From Porphyromonas pasteri (lineage in GTDB: Bacteria > Bacteroidota > Bacteroidia > Bacteroidales > Porphyromonadaceae), in the NCBI RefSeq assembly GCF_014647755.1, contig NZ_BMPU01000003.1, positions 186,001 through 250,000 on the forward strand: a DNA stretch of 64,000 bases, read 5' to 3'. Position 1 is the first letter of the stretch, and each line of letters begins with the position of its first letter. The position numbers and the translations under genes were made by a program. Of the stretch, positions 3,309 to 63,180 are shown one piece after another. The notes under the pieces were generated by a model. The model searched no databases. It was not told where the DNA came from and saw only the letters and a list, made by a program, of their open reading frames with translations.

Positions 3309-3430
3309 GGCTATATGGGTAGTAGAAGAAAGCTATATTGGTCGACGGGCTGACCTATACTGGTCGGTGAGGCCACCTATATTGCTCCACGCGGTGACCA
3401 ATATAGGTTCGACGAGTGACCAATATGAGA
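3309..3430. repeat. 22-bp-phased array of 12-bp near-palindromes (array 1)
   Basis: Six 12-bp units start at 3309, 3331, 3353, 3375, 3397 and 3419, exactly 22 bp apart. Examples are AGCTATATTGGT, ACCTATACTGGT and ACCAATATAGGT. Each unit is roughly palindromic around an AT-rich core, while the 10-bp spacers differ. The array runs straight into dispersed-repeat copy 1. The 2937-3308 stretch to its left shows no gene and is AT-rich near the promoter. Confidence 0.8.
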
Positions 3431-3870
3431 CTGTTGCGGGAGAGTGCTGTCCTCTATTTAGAGCGCTATGGCATCGCGCACCCAATCCCCCGATATGCCT
3501 CTCCAAAGTGACCGATCAAGCCCTTCGCCTTATCGCGAGTATTCCTCTTATCCAGCGGAAGGAAAAGTGTCCTTCTCATGAAGAAAAAAGCGCCTTCCCG
3601 TAGTGGCTTTCTTCTATCTATGCACGTAGTCTTAAAGACCAGGTACGTAAATCCAAATATCCACGTACGTAGATATTAGAGCCACGTACGTAGCCCCAAC
3701 TTATCTGCCACTCGTCCACAACTTTTATCCATACGCGGAGCAATAACCTAATAGAGATCTCTTCACAAAGCTATATAGCTTCGCACCGAAAGCTATATAG
3801 CTTTCTTCGCCATCCTATATAGCTCTACACACGTACTCATATACCTATAGGAGCAGCGACCAATACTGGT
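3427..3870 (+). repeat. Dispersed intergenic repeat, copy 1
   Basis: This copy begins near GAGACTGTTGC and shares the family blocks: GATATGCCTCTCC, CTTCGCCTTATCGCGAG, TCTTATCCAGCGGA, a poly-A stretch, and four ACGTA sites at 3623, 3644, 3666 and 3687. It then has TGCCACTCGTCCACAACTTT and a 22-bp-phased run of CTATATAG units at 3769, 3791, 3813 and 3835. It ends with an ACCAATACTGGT unit at 3859. Six related copies occur elsewhere in the window. No credible protein is encoded. Confidence 0.85.
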
Positions 3871-10373: not shown

Positions 10374-10800
10374 GAGACTGTTGCCTATAATCCTGCCCTC
10401 TATTTAGAGTACCAAGGCATCGCGCGACCAATTCCCCGATATGCCTCTCTGAAGTGGTCAAGCAAGCCCTCCGCCTTATCGCGAGTATTCCTCTTATCCA
10501 GCGGAGGGAAAAGTATCCTTCTCGTAGAGGGAAAAGCACCTTCATGCAGTGAGTTTCCTCTGTCTATGTACGTAGACTTAAAGACTAGGTACGTCAGTCC
10601 AAACATCCACGCACGTAGATTTATCGTCCACGCACGTAGCCCAAACTTATCTGCCACTCGTCCACAACTTTTATCCCTATGCGGAGCAACAACCTAATAG
10701 AGGTCACTTCACAAAGCTATATAGGAATCAGTCCAAAGCTATATAGCTTTCTTCGCCATTCTATATAAGCTCTACCCACGCATCCATACACCTATATGAA
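10374..10800 (+). repeat. Dispersed intergenic repeat, copy 2
   Basis: It starts AGAGACTGTTGC and carries the full family order: CCGATATGCCTCTC, CGCCTTATCGCGAG, CTTATCCAGCGGAGG, four ACGTA-type sites at 10567, 10588, 10610 and 10633, TGCCACTCGTCC, and 22-bp-phased CTATATAG units at 10693, 10715, 10737 and 10759. It fills the gap between the exbB operon and the TonB-dependent receptor. No gene lies here. Confidence 0.85.
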
Positions 10801-10802
10801 CA

Positions 10803-15933: not shown

Positions 15934-16074
15934 AATCTGAATTACTTGTTTGAGGGTGAATAAATGGTGTATTACCATCGCTATAACGTGAGGCGGAGAG
16001 AAAAGGTTTTTTCCTCCAAAAACCCACCCGAAATAACCACCTATCAAACAAGAATATAGCGGGACTAAAAAGCA

Positions 16075-16175
16075 ACCAGTACTGGTCAGCGATCGGACCA
16101 GTACTGGTTGACCATAGTGACCAGTACTGGTTCGCAGTCGGAGCAGTACTGGTCACGCGGGTGACCAGTACTGGT
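16075..16175. repeat. 22-bp-phased array of ACCAGTACTGGT palindromes (array 2)
   Basis: Five units start at 16075, 16097, 16120, 16142 and 16164. Four are the perfect 12-bp palindrome ACCAGTACTGGT and one is AGCAGTACTGGT. Spacing is 22, 23, 22 and 22 bp, and the intervening 10-11 bp are not conserved. The array stands alone, without the rest of the dispersed repeat. Confidence 0.9.
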
Positions 16176-16198
16176 TGATTTGGGGGGATCACAAAGCA

Positions 16199-22261: not shown

Positions 22262-22548
22262 ATTCGCGCGGAGGGTATGAAAAGCGCCTTCCCATAGTGG
22301 TATTCTTCTATCTATGCACGTAGTCTTAAGGACCAGGCACGCAAATCCAAATATCCACGTACGTAGATATTAGAGCCACGTGCGTAGTCCAAACTTATCT
22401 GCCACTCGTCCATAACTTTTATCCCTACGCGGAGCAACAACCTAATATAGGTCACTTCACAAAGCTATATAGGGATCAGTCCAAAATGATATAGCTTTCG
22501 CCACCCTCCTATATAGCTCCACCCACGTACTCATATACCTATACATAA
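22262..22548 (+). repeat. Dispersed intergenic repeat, copy 3 (5'-truncated)
   Basis: This copy starts within the family, near GCGGAGGG before AAGCGCCTTCCCATAGTGG. It keeps the ACGTA sites, TGCCACTCGTCCATAACTTT and the phased CTATATAG units at about 22441, 22463, 22485, 22507 and 22529, exactly 22 bp apart. The left third of the element is missing. Confidence 0.85.
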
Positions 22549-35666: not shown

Positions 35667-35767
35667 ACCAGTAGTCATTCGCACTCGAACCACTACTGGT
35701 TCGCTCTCCGACCACTACTGGTTTGTACTATGAACCACTACTGGTTTGCACTCGGACCACTACTGGT
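35667..35767. repeat. 22-bp-phased array of ACCACTACTGGT units (array 3)
   Basis: Units start at 35667, 35689, 35711, 35734 and 35756 (spacing 22, 22, 23, 22). The last four are ACCACTACTGGT; the first is a degenerate ACCAGTAGTCAT. Spacing and unit number match array 2, but the core differs (CTAC instead of GTAC). It lies between two convergent terminators. Confidence 0.9.
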
Positions 35768-38616: not shown

Positions 38617-38716
38617 TCCTATATAGGTCGATGAGCTGACCTATATTGGTCGCGACGCGAAGCTATATAGATTTGGACTGATTCCTATATAGCTTTGTGA
38701 AGTGACTTATATTGGG
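38617..38716. repeat. 22-bp-phased array (array 4) at the end of repeat copy 4
   Basis: Units start at 38617, 38639, 38661, 38683 and 38705, exactly 22 bp apart: TCCTATATAGGT, ACCTATATTGGT, AGCTATATAGAT, TCCTATATAGCT and ACTTATATTGGG. ACC..GGT-type and AGCTATATAG-type units alternate in one register, which shows that both belong to one class. Confidence 0.85.
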
Positions 38717-39045
38717 TTGTTGCTCTGCGTAGGGATAAAAGTTATGGACGAGTGGCAAATAAGTTTGGTCTACGTACGTGGATCTAATATCTACGTACGT
38801 GGATATTTGGATTTACGTGCTTGGTCTTTAAGACTACGTACATAGATAGAAGAATAGCACTACGGGAAGGTGCTTTTTTCTTCACGAGAAGGACACTTTT
38901 CCCTCTGCAGGATAAGTGGAATACGCACGATAAAGCGAAGGGAAAAGCGTATCACTTCGGAGAGGTACATCGGGGTGCTGGGCGTGCGATGCCTTAGCAC
39001 TCTCAATAGAAGACAGGACTCTTCCGCAACAGTCTCTAAAGGCTG
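38617..39045 (-). repeat. Dispersed intergenic repeat, copy 4 (inverted)
   Basis: Read on the minus strand it begins TAGAGACTGTTGCGG near 39042. It carries the full block order: CTAAGGCATCGCACGCCCAG, CTCTCCGAAGTGATACG, a poly-A segment, four ACGTA sites, TGCCACTCGTCCATAACTTT and the phased array. It sits between the convergent ompH-like and DUF3109 genes. No gene is seen in 38500-39157. Confidence 0.85.
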
Positions 39046-46403: not shown

Positions 46404-46502
46404 CTCAATATAGAGCAGAATCTTCATGAATTTTTCACGCCCTCCACTCTTATTTACAGCACGGGCATCGGGAGGGTGAGCAGTGCCCCACCTAAGCACA
46501 CG

Positions 46503-46540
46503 ACGGCCACCACCCCAGCGGGAGCTGGAGCGGTGGCCGT
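46503..46540 (-). terminator. Terminator of lipoprotein cassette 1
   Basis: ACGGCCACC...GGTGGCCGT encloses an inner CAGC/GCTG pair. Almost the same hairpin follows each of the four tandem lipoprotein genes. Confidence 0.8.
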
Positions 46541-46573
46541 ACTATATCGCGCGATGTGGCGGAGAGAAGCGGA

Positions 46574-47116
46574 CTACTTCGTACCCGTAGCCGTGATCTT
46601 CAGATCCAATCCTTGATCGGCAAGTGCCTTGAGGATGATACCTGCTTCGCTATTAGCAAAGTGGCTCGGGGGCATCTGATCCAGAAGGTTATTAGCGACA
46701 GCAATCTCCAGCTTGAGCTGGCCGTCTTTGCGAGCGACACTGCCGAAGGGGAAGTTATGCACGGAGAGCTTGCCATCCTTTAGAGCGACCTCAAAGGTCT
46801 TCTCTACGCCGTCGACGACAGAGATGAGGGTTGCCTTTTCGCCTGTAGTCTCACCCACGATCTTGAGCTTTGAGGGAGCTACAGTCAGCCCATTAAAGAT
46901 AGAAGCCTTGAAGATGTGATCTGCGACCTTGTACTCAGTGCCGCCAACGGTAATTGTCTCAGGGGAGACCGTTACGTCACTGAGATTCCACACACCAGCG
47001 AGGATGTCGGGGAAGACACATGGTAAAGGCTCTTGGGGCTCTTCTTTAGCACATGAGGTTGTGCCAAGAACGAGACTACCAAAGAGAAGAGCTACTGCCC
47101 ACTGCTTGATACACAT
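46574..47116 (-). CDS. Tandem paralogous lipoprotein, copy 1
   Basis: This 180-residue lipoprotein (MCIKQWAVALLFGSLVLGTTSC) is the first of four adjacent paralogues of 176-180 residues. After the lipid Cys and a charged linker, the body reads LAGVWNLSDVTVSPETITVGGTEYKVADHIFKASIFNGLTVAPSKLKI, then a variable middle, then HNFPFGSV and the invariant tail DQGLDLKITATGTK. A small beta-rich, possibly lipocalin-like fold is likely. I do not recognise the family. The middle matches copy 4 more than copies 2 and 3. It has its own promoter box and terminator. Confidence 0.85.
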   Translation of the reverse strand: MCIKQWAVALLFGSLVLGTTSCAKEEPQEPLPCVFPDILAGVWNLSDVTVSPETITVGGTEYKVADHIFKASIFNGLTVAPSKLKIVGETTGEKATLISVVDGVEKTFEVALKDGKLSVHNFPFGSVARKDGQLKLEIAVANNLLDQMPPSHFANSEAGIILKALADQGLDLKITATGTK

Positions 47117-47184
47117 ACCACTTGTTAATTATAGTTATACTCCCGACGTAGAGTAAGACAAGCGTCCATCATCTTGGGAGAGAG

Positions 47185-47192
47185 CAAATGTA
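47185..47192 (-). promoter_or_regulatory. -7 box of lipoprotein cassette 1
   Basis: The minus strand reads TACATTTG then C, fitting TAnnTTTG. It lies 69 bp before the ATG at 47116. Confidence 0.55.
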
Positions 47193-47229
47193 CGAAATAG
47201 CGGTAACTATGTTCCCCACCTAAGCGTAG

Positions 47230-47269
47230 CACGGCCACCACCCCAGCGGGAGCTGGAGCGGTGGCCGTG
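47230..47269 (-). terminator. Terminator of lipoprotein cassette 2
   Basis: CACGGCCACC...GGTGGCCGTG repeats the hairpin of cassette 1, just past the stop of copy 2. Confidence 0.8.
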
Positions 47270-47301
47270 CTATATCGTGCGATGTGGCGGGGAGAAGCGG
47301 A

Positions 47302-47832
47302 CTACTTTGTACCCGTAGCCGTAATCTTCAGATCGAGTCCCTGGTCTGCGATTGCCTTGAGGACGAAGGCACCTTCACCCTGAGTTAGGAGGTCTGAAGG
47401 CATCTGCTTGAAGAGGGTATTCGTGATGGAGATCTCCATATGGAGCTGGTTACCTTCGCGGACGACACTCCCGAAGGGGAGGTTATGAGCAGAGAGTTTA
47501 CCATCCTTCAGCGCAAGCGTCAACTTCGTATTAACACATAAAGCTCCAGTGGTAAGCACAGCCGTCTTGCCTTTGATATAGACAAACCTGGGCTCAAAAA
47601 CCAGATTAGTAAAGAGAGCACTCTTGAAGATGTGGTCTGCTACCTTATACTCCTTGCCCTCGATGGTGATGGTCTCGGGGGAAATCGTCGGCTCACCAAG
47701 ATCCCACGAACCCTCCAGATACTTAATAGCGACACTTGACTTAGGTCCATTGGGGTCGTCCTTAGAGCACGAAGCCGCGCCGAGGACGAGACTACCGAAG
47801 AGAAGGGCTACTGCCCACTGCTTGACATTCAT
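47302..47832 (-). CDS. Tandem paralogous lipoprotein, copy 2
   Basis: This 176-residue lipoprotein begins MNVKQWAVALLFGSLVLGAASC. Its first 50 residues (through YLEGSWDLG) are almost identical to copy 3, and its C-terminus DQGLDLKITATGTK is identical to all copies. The centre (SALFTNLVFEPRFVYIKGKTAVLTTGALCVNTKLTL) differs strongly from copy 3 and even more from copies 1 and 4. The pattern of fixed ends and a changing middle suggests recent duplication followed by diversification or gene conversion. The function is unknown. Confidence 0.85.
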   Translation of the reverse strand: MNVKQWAVALLFGSLVLGAASCSKDDPNGPKSSVAIKYLEGSWDLGEPTISPETITIEGKEYKVADHIFKSALFTNLVFEPRFVYIKGKTAVLTTGALCVNTKLTLALKDGKLSAHNLPFGSVVREGNQLHMEISITNTLFKQMPSDLLTQGEGAFVLKAIADQGLDLKITATGTK

Positions 47833-47966
47833 ACGACTTATACATTAGATAGGTTAAAATTATGCGTTCCTAAAGAGCGGGTAAGGCAAGCATCCTGCAC
47901 GCGCTCGGGGTGTGAGCGAACATACCGATAGCCCGACGAGGATATCCCTCAGGCTATAGCACTCCG

Positions 47967-47974
47967 TAAAGGTA
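47967..47974 (-). promoter_or_regulatory. Possible -7 box of lipoprotein cassette 2
   Basis: The minus strand reads TACCTTTA, one base from TAnnTTTG, at the equivalent place to the boxes of the other cassettes. Spacing to the ATG is longer (about 135 bp). Confidence 0.35.
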
Positions 47975-47987
47975 TCAAATAATCACA

Positions 47988-48027
47988 CACGGCTACCACC
48001 CCAGCGGGAGCTGGAGCAGTGGCCGTG
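47988..48027 (-). terminator. Terminator of lipoprotein cassette 3
   Basis: CACGGCTACC...GTGGCCGTG is the same hairpin with two changed bases in the stem. Confidence 0.75.
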
Positions 48028-48059
48028 CTATATCGCGCGATGTGGCGTGGAGGAGCGAA

Positions 48060-48590
48060 CTACTTCGTACCCGTAGCCGTGATCTTCAGATCCAAGCCTT
48101 GATCGGCAAGTGCCTTGAGGATAAAGCCACTCTCACCCTGAGTTAGGTGCTCTGAGGGCATCTGCTTCAAGAGGGCATTTGTGATGGCGATCTCCAGCTT
48201 GAGTAACTTACCCTCACGGACAACACTCCCGATGGGGAGGTTATGTACGGAGAGTTTACCTTCCTTCAGAGCAAGCTTCATGCTATGTTGAACGCAATAG
48301 CCAACGGCGCGAAGCTCAGCCGTCTCGCCCTTGATCAGGATAAATCGAGGCTCCCAACCCAGCCCAGTAAAAAGGAAAGTCTTGAAGATGTGGTCTGCTA
48401 CCTTATACTCCTTGCCCTCGATGGTGATGGTCTCGGGGGAGATCGTCAGCTTACCAAGATCCCACGACCCCTCCAGATACTTAATAGCGACACTCGACTT
48501 AGGTCCATTGGGGTCGTCCTTAGAGCACGAAGCCGCGCCGAGGACGAGACTACCGAAGAGAAGGGCGACTGCCCACTGCTTGATATTCAT
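48060..48590 (-). CDS. Tandem paralogous lipoprotein, copy 3
   Basis: This 176-residue lipoprotein (MNIKQWAVALLFGSLVLGAASC) shares a near-identical first third with copy 2, including SKDDPNGPKSSVAIKYLEGSWDLG, and the common tail DQGLDLKITATGTK. The middle (TFLFTGLGWEPRFILIKGETAELRAVGYCVQHSMKLAL) is distinct. Like the others it is probably surface-exposed and small. Each copy carries its own promoter-like box and terminator, so they need not be expressed together. Confidence 0.85.
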   Translation of the reverse strand: MNIKQWAVALLFGSLVLGAASCSKDDPNGPKSSVAIKYLEGSWDLGKLTISPETITIEGKEYKVADHIFKTFLFTGLGWEPRFILIKGETAELRAVGYCVQHSMKLALKEGKLSVHNLPIGSVVREGKLLKLEIAITNALLKQMPSEHLTQGESGFILKALADQGLDLKITATGTK

Positions 48591-48673
48591 ACGACTTATT
48601 CATTAGATAGGTTAAAATCATGTATTCCCGAAGAGCGAATATGGCAAGCACCCCACTCGCACTCAGGACAGAG

Positions 48674-48681
48674 CGAAGGTA
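48674..48681 (-). promoter_or_regulatory. Possible -7 box of lipoprotein cassette 3
   Basis: The minus strand reads TACCTTCG, one base off TAnnTTTG, 83 bp upstream of the ATG. Confidence 0.35.
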
Positions 48682-48723
48682 TGAAATAGCAGTGACTATA
48701 CCAAGCACGCTCCTCCTAAGCGC

Positions 48724-48767
48724 ATCACGGCCACCACCCCAGCGGAAGCTGGAGCGGTGGCCGTGAT
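48724..48767 (-). terminator. Terminator of lipoprotein cassette 4
   Basis: ATCACGGCCACC...GGTGGCCGTGAT, the longest version of the shared cassette hairpin. Confidence 0.8.
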
Positions 48768-48796
48768 GTGTAGTTAGATGTGGAGGAAGAAGCGGA

Positions 48797-49327
48797 CTAC
48801 TTCGTCCCCGTAGCCGTGATCTTCAGATCGAGTCCCTGATCTGCGATTGCCTTGAGGATGATCCCTGCTTCGGTCTTAGCAAAGTGGCTCAGAGGCATCT
48901 GCTTCAGGAGGTCATTCGCGACAGCGATCTGCAGCTTGAGCTGGTTGCCTTCGCGCACGACACTACCGAAGGGGAAGGTCTGGAAGGAGAGCTTGCCCTC
49001 CTTCACCGTGACGTCGAAGGTCTTCTCTACGCCGTCAACGACAGAGATGAGGGTAGCCTTTTCGCCTTCGATCTTGACCTTAGAGGGAGCTACGCTCAGC
49101 CCATTGAAGATGAAGGCCTTGAAGATATGGTCTGCGACCTTGTACTCGGTGCCGTCAACGCTGACAGTCGCGGGGGAGAAAGTGACCCCACCGAGGTTCC
49201 ACGTACCTGCAAGGTCTTCGATAGCGACGCTCGTCTCAGGCTTCTTGGGTTCGTCCTTAGCGCACGAAGCCGTGCCGAGGACGATAGCACCGAGGAGAAG
49301 GGCTGCTGCCCACTGCTTGATATACAT
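48797..49327 (-). CDS. Tandem paralogous lipoprotein, copy 4
   Basis: This 176-residue lipoprotein (MYIKQWAAALLLGAIVLGTASC) has a middle segment close to copy 1 (NGLSVAPSKVKIEGEKATLISVVDGVEKTFDV) and the common C-terminus. It is the most upstream of the four. A LAGTWNLGGV start after the linker again suggests a lipocalin-like barrel. The promoter box at 49409-49416 is the best match among the four cassettes, so it may be the ancestral unit. That is inference. Confidence 0.85.
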   Translation of the reverse strand: MYIKQWAAALLLGAIVLGTASCAKDEPKKPETSVAIEDLAGTWNLGGVTFSPATVSVDGTEYKVADHIFKAFIFNGLSVAPSKVKIEGEKATLISVVDGVEKTFDVTVKEGKLSFQTFPFGSVVREGNQLKLQIAVANDLLKQMPLSHFAKTEAGIILKAIADQGLDLKITATGTK

Positions 49328-49408
49328 ACTGCTTTGTTAATTATAGGTTAGAGAATGTGCTCCCACAGGAAAGGCGAGGCAAGCGCCCCGCGTGCTCTCG
49401 GGAGGGAG

Positions 49409-60260: not shown

Positions 60261-60503
60261 CCTATATTGAGAGTGCTAAGGCATCACACGCCCAGCTCCC
60301 CGATATGCCTCTCCGCAGCGATACGCAAGCCCTTCGCCTTATCGCGAGTATTCCTCTTACCCAGCGGAGGGGAAAGCATCATTTTCGTGAAGAAAAAAGC
60401 GCCATCCCGTAGTGGTTTTTCCGCATCTATGCACGTAGTCTTAAAGACCAGGCACGTAAATCCAAATATCCACGTACGTAGATATTAGAGCCACGTACGT
60501 AGC
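60261..60503 (+). repeat. Dispersed intergenic repeat, copy 5 (3'-truncated)
   Basis: It begins near ATTGAGAGTGCTAAGGCATC and keeps the family order up to the fourth ACGTA site (CCACGTACGTAGC). It then stops abruptly where AACTTATCTGCCACTCG would be expected. Sequence to the right turns AT-rich, consistent with an insertion or replacement at about 60503. Confidence 0.8.
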
Positions 60504-61351: not shown

Positions 61352-62684
61352 AAATGAGACCATTGCGCAAGCCCATCTCCTTACAGCTTCCACCTTCTTG
61401 CCTCGAGAATTGGGATCTTTAGGCTGAGAAGAGGGATCCCTATATCTCCCCCTTGCCCCCTCTCGGGAGGATCATCCTCCCGAGAGGGGGCTTTTCTGGG
61501 CTATTGGGTGCTCTGGAGCACAAGAAGCCTAGGCATACGCTTCAGATTGTATGCCATAGCCTCCAAGATATTCTGTGTATGCGTTCGCTCAAGCCCTCGG
61601 TAGCGACATCGCCCTCCTGAAAACCACCTTCGAATACTCCCGAAGGTGCGCTCTATCAAACAGTGTATTTTGCTGATGCCGTTATTCAGTTCACGTTGTC
61701 GCTCTGTAAGCTTCATCCCCTTCTGCGCTTTGAGCATAATCCCATCAATCAAGCCGCGCTCAAGGAGACAAGCCGAGTTCTTCTTACTACAATAACCTTT
61801 ATCGGCAAGGACACTAACGCCCTGCGTAAGCTCAGCCTTCTCTATCAGCTCGGGCAATACCACCGTATCGGCACAATTGGCTGGCGTGGTAATTATGCTC
61901 TCCACCAACCCTTGCCCATCGGTCAGCACGTGCTTTTTGTACCCGTAGCGATAGTGTCTGCCTTTGCGCACCCAACGAGCTTCCGTATCCACCCCTGGTT
62001 TGCGACTTTTTAGCTCATACTGATAAGCCTGCTCTTGGGCTTGCTCTTCTTCGGTGCGCAAGTCCTCTCGGTCGTCGGCCACTTTGATGAGGATACTCCC
62101 ATCGGGAGCGTGCGGGCTATCCACAATGCTCGCATCCACAATAGCCCCTTGGTCAATACGGCTAATCCCGTGCTTCTTGAACTGCTTATTCAGCTCGCGA
62201 AGGAGCTTGTCCATAATCCCCAAGCGGGTCAGTTCAGCGCGAAAGCGACAGATGGTGCTGTGGTCTGGAGCTGGAAGGCCCATATCCAAGAGGGGGAATT
62301 CGCTGAAGAGGAGGGAGTCGTTGATCCGTTCTTCGACTTCGTAATCACTCAGGCCGTACCAGGTCTGAAGTAGTAGGATCTTGAACATCATCAAGGCATC
62401 ATAGGCTGGATTTCCTGTGGCATTCTGGGTCTTTGTATACTTCTTGTTGAGTAGTGTGCGAATACCTCGCCAGTCAACGCAAGCGCTGATCTGTCGGAGG
62501 AACGAGTGCTTCATACGGTCGCGGCGCACCTGCGTATAAACTTGCAGGAAGCTCGGAGCGGATTCGGTTTGTTTGGTAGGCATAGCTATACGATTGTTTT
62601 GGTTATGAAGATACTAAATGTCAACGGCATACGAAATGGTTAAAATCCTGTACACCTTTGAAATGCCGTGCAATGGTCTCATTT
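61352..62684 (-). mobile_element. IS5-family insertion sequence
   Basis: Near-terminal sequences AAATGAGACCATTGC (61352-61366) and its reverse complement (62670-62684) bound a region of about 1.33 kb containing one complete transposase gene. The inner parts (GCGCAAG on the left, ACGGC on the right) differ. No clear target-site duplication was found, so the exact ends are provisional. A strong GC hairpin at 61455-61491 lies just past the transposase stop, with its T-run on the plus strand. Confidence 0.8.
61501..62583 (-). CDS. IS5-family transposase
   Basis: This 360-residue DDE transposase resembles the IS1126/ISPg group of P. gingivalis. It shows an N-terminal DUF772-type region (CVDWRGIRTLLNKKYTKTQNATGNPAYDALMMFKILLL), the catalytic Asps in GAIVDASIVDSPH and SVLADKGYCSKKN, and the Glu in CLIERTFGSIRRWFSGGRCRYRG. 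The frame is complete with no stop or frameshift, so the element could be active. It reads leftwards, away from repeat copy 6. Confidence 0.94.
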   Translation of the reverse strand: MPTKQTESAPSFLQVYTQVRRDRMKHSFLRQISACVDWRGIRTLLNKKYTKTQNATGNPAYDALMMFKILLLQTWYGLSDYEVEERINDSLLFSEFPLLDMGLPAPDHSTICRFRAELTRLGIMDKLLRELNKQFKKHGISRIDQGAIVDASIVDSPHAPDGSILIKVADDREDLRTEEEQAQEQAYQYELKSRKPGVDTEARWVRKGRHYRYGYKKHVLTDGQGLVESIITTPANCADTVVLPELIEKAELTQGVSVLADKGYCSKKNSACLLERGLIDGIMLKAQKGMKLTERQRELNNGISKIHCLIERTFGSIRRWFSGGRCRYRGLERTHTQNILEAMAYNLKRMPRLLVLQSTQ

Positions 62685-63047
62685 ATTCAGCTAAGGCATC
62701 GCACGCCAAGCTTCCCGATATACCTCTCCGAAGCGATACACAAGCCCTTCGCCTTATCGCGAGTATTCATCTTATCCAGCGGAGGAAAAAGCATCGTTCT
62801 CGTGAAGAAAAAAGCACCTTCACGTAGTGGGTTTCATTTATCTATGTACGTAGTCTTAAAGACCAGGCACGTAAATCCAAATATCCACGTACGTAGATTT
62901 TAAGACCACGTACGTAGCCCCAACTTATCTACCACTCGTCTGCAACTTTTATCCCTACGCAGAGCAACAACTCTTAGAGGTCACTTCACAAAGCTATATA
63001 GCTTTCTTCGCCATCCTATATAGCTCTACCATGCACCCATATAGCTA
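62685..63047 (+). repeat. Dispersed intergenic repeat, copy 6 (5'-truncated at the IS)
   Basis: It begins directly at the IS end with CAGCTAAGGCATCGCACGCC. It keeps the remaining blocks: ACGTA sites at 62847, 62868, 62890 and 62911 (the same 21/22/21 spacing as copy 1), and phased units at 62992, 63014 and 63036, exactly 22 bp apart. The left end of the copy has been replaced by the IS. Confidence 0.85.
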
Positions 63048-63053
63048 TATATG

Positions 63054-63180
63054 GAATCATTGCGCAAGACCACTTCTTCATTACTCGTACCTTCTTCCTT
63101 CGCAAATCGGAGGCTTTAGGCTGAGAAGTTCGAAGGAGGAAAGTGCAAGCTGTGAAGAGATGGCCTTGCGCAATGGTCTC
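63054..63180. mobile_element. MITE-like element related to the IS5 ends
   Basis: This 127-bp segment is bounded by GAATCATTGCGCAAG and CTTGCGCAATGGTCTC, inverted relative to each other. The arms continue as an imperfect long inverted repeat. The right terminus is identical over 16 bp to the left end of the nearby IS, and the inner stretch GGCTTTAGGCTGAGAAG is close to TCTTTAGGCTGAGAAG inside the IS left end. It has no coding capacity. Confidence 0.7.

Follow-up and report, generated by a model that had tools for sequence, protein, structure and literature searches.

Dispersed intergenic arrays of regularly spaced palindromes in Porphyromonas pasteri and related species

Introduction

Tandem repeats of 22 and 23 nt had been noted in Porphyromonas gingivalis W83, and the BrickBuilt minisatellite, located within a MITE with IS5-type TIRs, was described from this species in 2015 (Klein et al. 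2015, PMC4596501). In the present analysis, the BrickBuilt repeat was found to consist of a 12-bp palindrome, TCTCATRTGAGA, and an 11-nt spacer, CCATAGTATCC. The kind of repeat reported below is thus already known.

Dispersed extragenic palindromes are likewise formed by REP/BIME sequences with RAYT transposases. Multi-site operators and iterons contain several sites, either palindromic or direct, which lie about two turns apart and are bound by dimeric proteins.

The present analysis concerns a window of 64,000 nucleotides of Porphyromonas pasteri DNA (contig C3:186001-250000 of a 2.17-Mb genome), for which an earlier note had reported three palindrome arrays, located at 3309-3430, 16075-16175 and 35667-35767.

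Results and Discussion

Three arrays in the window

The array at 16075-16175 comprises five units at 22-23 bp, as had been described. The units start at 16075, 16097, 16120, 16142 and 16164, giving steps of 22, 23, 22 and 22 bp; four of them are exactly ACCAGTACTGGT, while the fourth (16142) is AGCAGTACTGGT, which carries one change. Calculated over 23 copies, column conservation reaches background some 10-15 bp away from the outer units, and the array is one copy of a dispersed intergenic element of about 125 bp, here termed class A.

The array at 35667-35767 follows the class A plan in the orientation opposite to the 16075 array. Its units start at 35667 (degenerate), 35689, 35711, 35734 and 35756, and four are exactly ACCACTACTGGT, each with one altered half. 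This variant half is scarce elsewhere and the array is therefore uniform internally, in keeping with the earlier proposal that each array had been homogenised. Its spacers, however, are unlike one another, so that simple tandem copying, which the differing spacers of class A speak against in general, does not explain the array.

In the array at 3309-3430, six slots follow one another every 22 bp, namely GGCTATATGGGT (3309), AGCTATATTGGT (3331), ACCTATACTGGT (3353), ACCTATATTGCT (3375), ACCAATATAGGT (3397) and ACCAATAT (3419). The slot at 3419 is cut by GAGAC, at an IS5-type TIR (GAGACTGTTGC, 3427) with which a repeat of about 430 bp begins. Both companion arrays are thus present but they are not equivalent: the 35667 array is a variant of class A, whereas that at 3309 belongs to a second class, B, and lies next to a MITE-like repeat.

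16075-16175, forward strand: class A array of five units with steps of 22, 23, 22 and 22 bp; last four units (G000:C3:202097-202175) with 1 mismatch
16063-16190, forward strand: full class A element, approximate, with short A-rich left and T-rich right edges (from column conservation)
35667-35767, reverse strand: class A variant array, steps of 22, 22, 23 and 22 bp, four ACCACTACTGGT units and one degenerate unit (from unit positions)
3309-3430, without strand: class B (TATA-core) array with six 22-bp slots, of which the final one is cut short at an IS5-type TIR (from unit positions and TIR)

Arrays across the P. pasteri genome

A genome search demonstrated that the arrays occur far beyond chance, so that the refuting outcome named in the earlier note did not come about. 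The pattern ACC-N6-GGT-N10-ACC-N6-GGT yielded 200 matches in the 2.17-Mb genome compared with 1 for the reversed-pattern control, and 200 pairs were obtained with the core pattern of classes A and B, ACCNNTANNGGT, compared with 0 for the control. Whole-genome counts stem from such pattern searches; array statistics were compiled from 800 kb of contig C1 plus the window. Within the 800 kb of C1, 139 of 158 exact units are located inside arrays, and the steps between units are 22 bp (132), 23 bp (34) or 21 bp (1). The units form 62 runs, or 57 groups once joined, with five units as the commonest size. According to a simple gene caller, 55 of 56 array groups are intergenic, as the earlier note had held for the window, the exception being a two-unit run at 136730 which overlaps a called gene. 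The genome contains about 100 of these short intergenic arrays.

A search for class A units, four at a time in the 23,22,22 register and with at most 3 mismatches, retrieved at least 48 copies genome-wide, 29 of them on one strand and 19 on the opposite one. The reversed control gave none. Complete copies follow the plan 22,23,22,22 or its mirror, with a single exception at 22,22,22,22. Class B units combine the half-sites ACCTAT, ACCAAT, ACCACT and ACCAGT, and other-core families at 22 bp are represented by CGTATACG, GTATATAC and ATACGTAT. The exchange of the core with retention of the outer ACC/GGT, first noticed between the three arrays of the window, is thus observed within the genome and also between species (see below).

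Further 22-bp palindrome arrays, e.g. with AAAACGTATACGTTTT units, are found at C1:236024 (L027:16024 region), C1:475117 and C1:696360, and CGTATACG arrays are common to P. pasteri and its closest relative, G012. Near-identical class A elements at C2:187328, 194307, 205025 and 215174 are spaced 7-11 kb apart and are probably passengers of a tandem segmental duplication. On C1, 12 class A elements are in forward and 3 in reverse orientation before the skew maximum at 444.6 kb, versus 2 and 6 after it (P 0.023, post hoc; a looser set gives P 0.10). That class A orientation follows the direction of replication on C1 is a weak, post hoc lead.

The genes beside the arrays are mixed housekeeping and transport genes without an obvious regulon, and the distances between array and gene vary. 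A coherent regulon behind the arrays was rejected because of these mixed neighbours.

Conservation of units and half-sites, and the question of pairing

Class A columns were aligned in the orientation given by the 23-bp step. Over the 23 copies, information per column amounts to 1.53-1.76 bits in the units, confirming that the units are conserved, and to 0.41-0.72 bits in the spacers. The first ten bases of the flanks retain 0.5-0.7 bits, beyond which background (0.02-0.1 bits) is reached. Conserved units between diverged spacers are a misfit with passive decay, because decay would strike both alike. Dyad symmetry peaks at the five unit centres only, with weaker peaks at the four spacer centres, which argues against extra degenerate palindromes outside the five units.

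Like BrickBuilt, the arrays are strictly intergenic and dispersed tandem repeats of about 23 bp, restricted to a species or clade. In BrickBuilt, however, spacers are conserved, palindrome centres vary, and arrays long and variable in copy number are combined with a leader and a tail, whereas class A displays conserved palindromes, diverged spacers and exactly five units, and has neither leader, tail nor TIR.

Changes within the class A half-sites are mostly C to G at position 2, and positions 1, 4 and 6 are almost fixed; since this set was chosen at no more than 3 mismatches, the frequencies are biased low. In a less strictly chosen set of 115 units, both halves match the consensus in 61 and one half is altered in 54, while no unit has two altered halves (6.3 expected; 0 of 5000 permutations were as low). 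Judged from sequence, this substitution pattern fits a dimer which would recognise each palindrome and need at least one good half. Position-specific, symmetric conservation of the units in combination with free spacers, a trait of operator arrays, is found in class A. In the open-licence papers searched, neither a fixed plan of five palindromes, in which units are conserved and spacers free, nor such a half-site rule was found.

Alternatively, the arrays could act as nucleic-acid hairpins, i.e. as terminators, mRNA stabilisers or cruciforms, either with 12-bp stems and 10-nt loops or as a single long hairpin. Predicted folding is strong for two class A arrays (z about -7 to -8), A-rich and T-rich edges are present, and the consensus sequences of class A spacers 1 and 4 are complementary. 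However, identical palindromes in an array always give strong predicted folding, the predicted folding of the 3309 array does not exceed that of shuffled sequences (z -1.1), and only 2 of 26 class A groups are situated between convergent genes. Moreover, complementary covariation between class A units was seen in 1 case versus about 6.3 expected (summed), and no covariation was seen between spacers 1 and 4 (P 0.72) despite their complementary consensus. A long hairpin maintained by pairing was rejected for class A, as covariation is missing. Exact bases are held beyond the needs of pairing, and the class A conservation pattern does not fit selection for pairing alone. Altered halves without pairing-type covariation favour sequence-specific dimer binding over an RNA hairpin, and hairpins are an improbable account of the arrays, particularly of class A. 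In seven five-unit arrays of class B, by contrast, spacer 1 agrees with the spacer 4 complement at 7.7 of 10 positions versus 6.1 (P 0.003). This complementarity within the array favours a paired structure, and class B thus includes a long inverted repeat or did so until recently. A known RNA family was discounted, since the window contains no Rfam match above the gathering score.

A putative docking element

Class A is characterised by a fixed five-palindrome plan in which the palindromes are conserved and every unit keeps at least one consensus half, and related species possess arrays of like build with other palindromes. Tentatively, and with chances we place slightly short of even, the arrays are best regarded as putative multi-site docking elements for a dimeric DNA-binding protein. 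Each 12-bp palindrome would represent a site for a homodimeric, sequence-specific DNA-binding protein, and five adjacent sites would allow several dimers to join in one nucleoprotein complex. Complexes at about 100 sites might then serve, outside genes, as stations for regulation or for the organisation of the chromosome. The elements would have spread via copying or transposition of some kind and, in each lineage, the recognised palindrome would have been turned over jointly at many sites. The mixed neighbouring genes, their varying distances from the arrays and the spacer complementarity of class B speak against this reading.

A cooperatively binding protein had been suggested previously on the grounds that all units face the same side of the DNA. 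The substitution pattern, as read from the sequence, does resemble a dimer-binding site, but the same-face spacing is not supported: 22-23 bp is not exactly two turns, and at 10.5 bp per turn a 22-bp step drifts by about 34 degrees, adding up to about 170 degrees over five units.

The arrays share with operators and iterons several sites at about two-turn spacing, a position-specific tolerance and symmetric half-sites. They differ from them in forming about 50-100 near-identical chromosomal arrays, in the replacement of the unit sequence between close species, and in having no known linked regulator or replication gene. ParB/Noc-like arrays were considered and rejected, as the genome encodes a single ParB-type HTH without link to the arrays.

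The 430-bp repeat and IS5-type ends

The view that no known repeat explains the arrays could not be maintained. The end of the 3309-3430 array adjoins the IS5-type TIR GAGACTGTTGC and the repeat of about 430 bp, and a 12-bp palindrome followed by an 11-nt spacer is the anatomy of the BrickBuilt minisatellite. Within 864 kb, the repeat occurs about 40 times, most copies being 80-90% identical, and one IS5-type end was found, at 3427, 10374 and 39026. It harbours internal palindromes (AGCTATATAGCT / ACGTACGT) at 21-22 bp. Being MITE-like and carrying palindromes of its own at this spacing, it is the local counterpart of BrickBuilt and related in kind to this P. gingivalis MITE. The following elements are located in the window:

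3427-3850, forward strand: dispersed MITE-like repeat of about 430 bp with IS5-type end GAGACTGTTGC (from copies and TIR)
10374-10802, forward strand: MITE-like repeat of about 430 bp, further copy (from repeat search and IS5-type end)
22280-22543, forward strand: partial copy of the repeat, with palindromes at 22 bp
38638-39036, reverse strand: further copy of the repeat, TATA-core units adjoining
60261-60503, forward strand: partial copy of the repeat
62690-63049, forward strand: further copy of the repeat
61356-62680, reverse strand: IS5-type insertion sequence with TIRs GAGACCATTGC and GCAATGGTCTC (from transposase 61501-62583 and ends)

The transposase of the insertion sequence (61501-62583) contains DDE_Tnp_1 and DUF772 domains, and GAGACCATTGC ends are situated at 61356 and 62670-62680. 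These TIRs are identical to those given for ISPg1/ISPg9, and the GAGACTGTTGC end is given for ISPg4 and MITEPgRS (PMC4596501). Both the 430-bp repeat and the insertion sequence thus carry ends that match TIRs of IS5-family elements and MITEs with GAGACC/TRTTGC ends (ISPg1, ISPg4, MITEPgRS; PMC4596501); such ends are lacking in the class A arrays. The insertion sequence could supply the MITE-like repeats with enzyme. A small element at 63056-63180, behind the insertion sequence, has the same right end. At 46502-49348, the window also contains four paralogous genes in tandem, each encoding about 176 aa, in repeats of about 740 bp which are 64-90% identical at the DNA level.

These elements bear on the main rival reading, in which the arrays are non-autonomous mobile elements of the BrickBuilt type, i.e. 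minisatellite-bearing MITEs without host function, whose palindromes persist through transposase recognition or recent copying. In its favour, the arrays lie between genes, are scattered over the genome and differ from species to species, an IS5-type transposase element is present in the window, and a repeat with an IS5-type TIR adjoins the class B array at 3309. The BrickBuilt repeat, found here to combine a 12-bp palindrome and an 11-nt spacer, belongs to an IS5-TIR MITE (PMC4596501). Class A, however, gave no signal of a target-site duplication at any offset, with only degenerate symmetry at the edges; an IS5-type TIR lies near 1 of 31 arrays and no flank is conserved. Conserved units between diverged spacers likewise speak against a mobile element, as does the lack of a Y1/REP-type transposase in the genome. 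With neither TSD nor TIR, a classical MITE was rejected for class A. On balance, mobile elements without host function are a possible but rather doubtful explanation; for class B, mobility and protein docking are not mutually exclusive. If the arrays are mobile elements, BrickBuilt is no longer a peculiarity of P. gingivalis but one case of a class spanning the genus, of which the phased palindrome would be a common feature not pointed out in the open-licence literature searched.

Many small dispersed extragenic palindromes are also reminiscent of REP/BIME sequences kept by a RAYT (Y1 HUH) transposase. However, no match to Y1_Tnp (PF01797) was detected in the genome by a search that was positive in 5 control genomes, and the units are short perfect palindromes arrayed at fixed spacing, as opposed to imperfect hairpins of 20-40 bp. 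With the Y1 transposase absent, this explanation is already largely refuted and we consider it very improbable. A phage, plasmid or viral origin was dismissed, because the arrays have no match in phages, plasmids or viral contigs.

Arrays in related genomes

Relatives were searched, as advised in the earlier note. The class A/B pattern ACCNNTANNGGT has 0 matches in 25 same-genus and 12 same-family genomes; same-genus genomes possess palindromic arrays of their own at 21-24 bp, with different units. Unit sequences are restricted to a single species or clade. Tandem repeats of 21-24 bp reach 72 per Mb in P. pasteri, 63 in G012 and 48 in the sampled same-genus genomes, compared with 14 per Mb for the order's other families and 2 for mostly Sphingobacteriales loci, the latter being mostly coding and hence an imperfect control. 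Within the genus, 26-37% of repeat units are dyad-symmetric at P<0.05, versus 0% outside of it.

Pairs of CCACGTGG at 22 bp number 198 and 260 in G001 and G025, and 64, 5 and 3 in three other genomes. In G001 (L136:12154), G025 (L155:12235) and similar loci, CCACGTGG units at 22 bp surround a TTCGGAGGAA core, which consists of two or three repeats at 21 bp and represents a separate composite plan. G023, about 91% identical to this clade, has only five such CCACGTGG pairs, and the array surroundings in these three genomes are too diverged for an empty-site comparison. Units of G006 and G008 are TCTCATNNGAGA at 23 bp. G006 contains a 23-bp repeat that fits BrickBuilt, with 18 units in one array; the BrickBuilt unit pattern has 82 forward and 48 reverse matches in G006 and 0 in the P. 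pasteri genome.

G012 shares about 80% amino-acid identity with P. pasteri over 248 reciprocal best hits. Its arrays comprise 48 pairs of ACCTACNGTAGGT at 23 bp and 14 pairs of ACCCATNNATGGGT at 24 bp, in which the ACC/GGT ends and the 10-nt spacer are kept and the palindromes measure 13 or 14 bp. The periods of 23 and 24 bp follow from these palindromes and the constant spacer; spacer length is thus conserved and helical phase is not, which further speaks against phasing on one face.

Four P. pasteri arrays (C1 243293, 396317, 416219 and 498536) have a counterpart in G012, where the genes that flank them enclose an array of the G012 type with another unit. In a systematic, though small, test of orthologous loci, a G012 array was present in 3 of 5 P. 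pasteri array intervals versus 1 of 159 others, with length-matched Fisher P values of 0.0045 (at least 100 bp), 0.028 (150), 0.063 (200) and 0.24 (250). This suggests that array positions persist while units get swapped; long intergenic regions may, however, simply gather repeats.

A more far-reaching version of the docking reading would be a genus-wide co-evolution of one DNA-binding protein, or a small family, with its chromosomal arrays, in which positions tend to persist and the palindrome is replaced at many loci under a rule, palindrome plus spacer of about 10 nt, that outlives the sequence. The logic is comparable to that of fast-evolving centromere repeats, and we consider this version rather unlikely. 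No such occurrence throughout the genus, with units that turn over and a spacer of constant length, was found in the open-licence papers searched. If the arrays are protein stations, close species provide a natural series with the same array plan and different recognition sequences, in which the joint change of DNA-binding specificity and many chromosomal sites becomes directly testable.

Three more G012 arrays (L237, L239 and L242) are located at rearrangement junctions or synteny breakpoints, and at these the matching P. pasteri flank also leads to an array.
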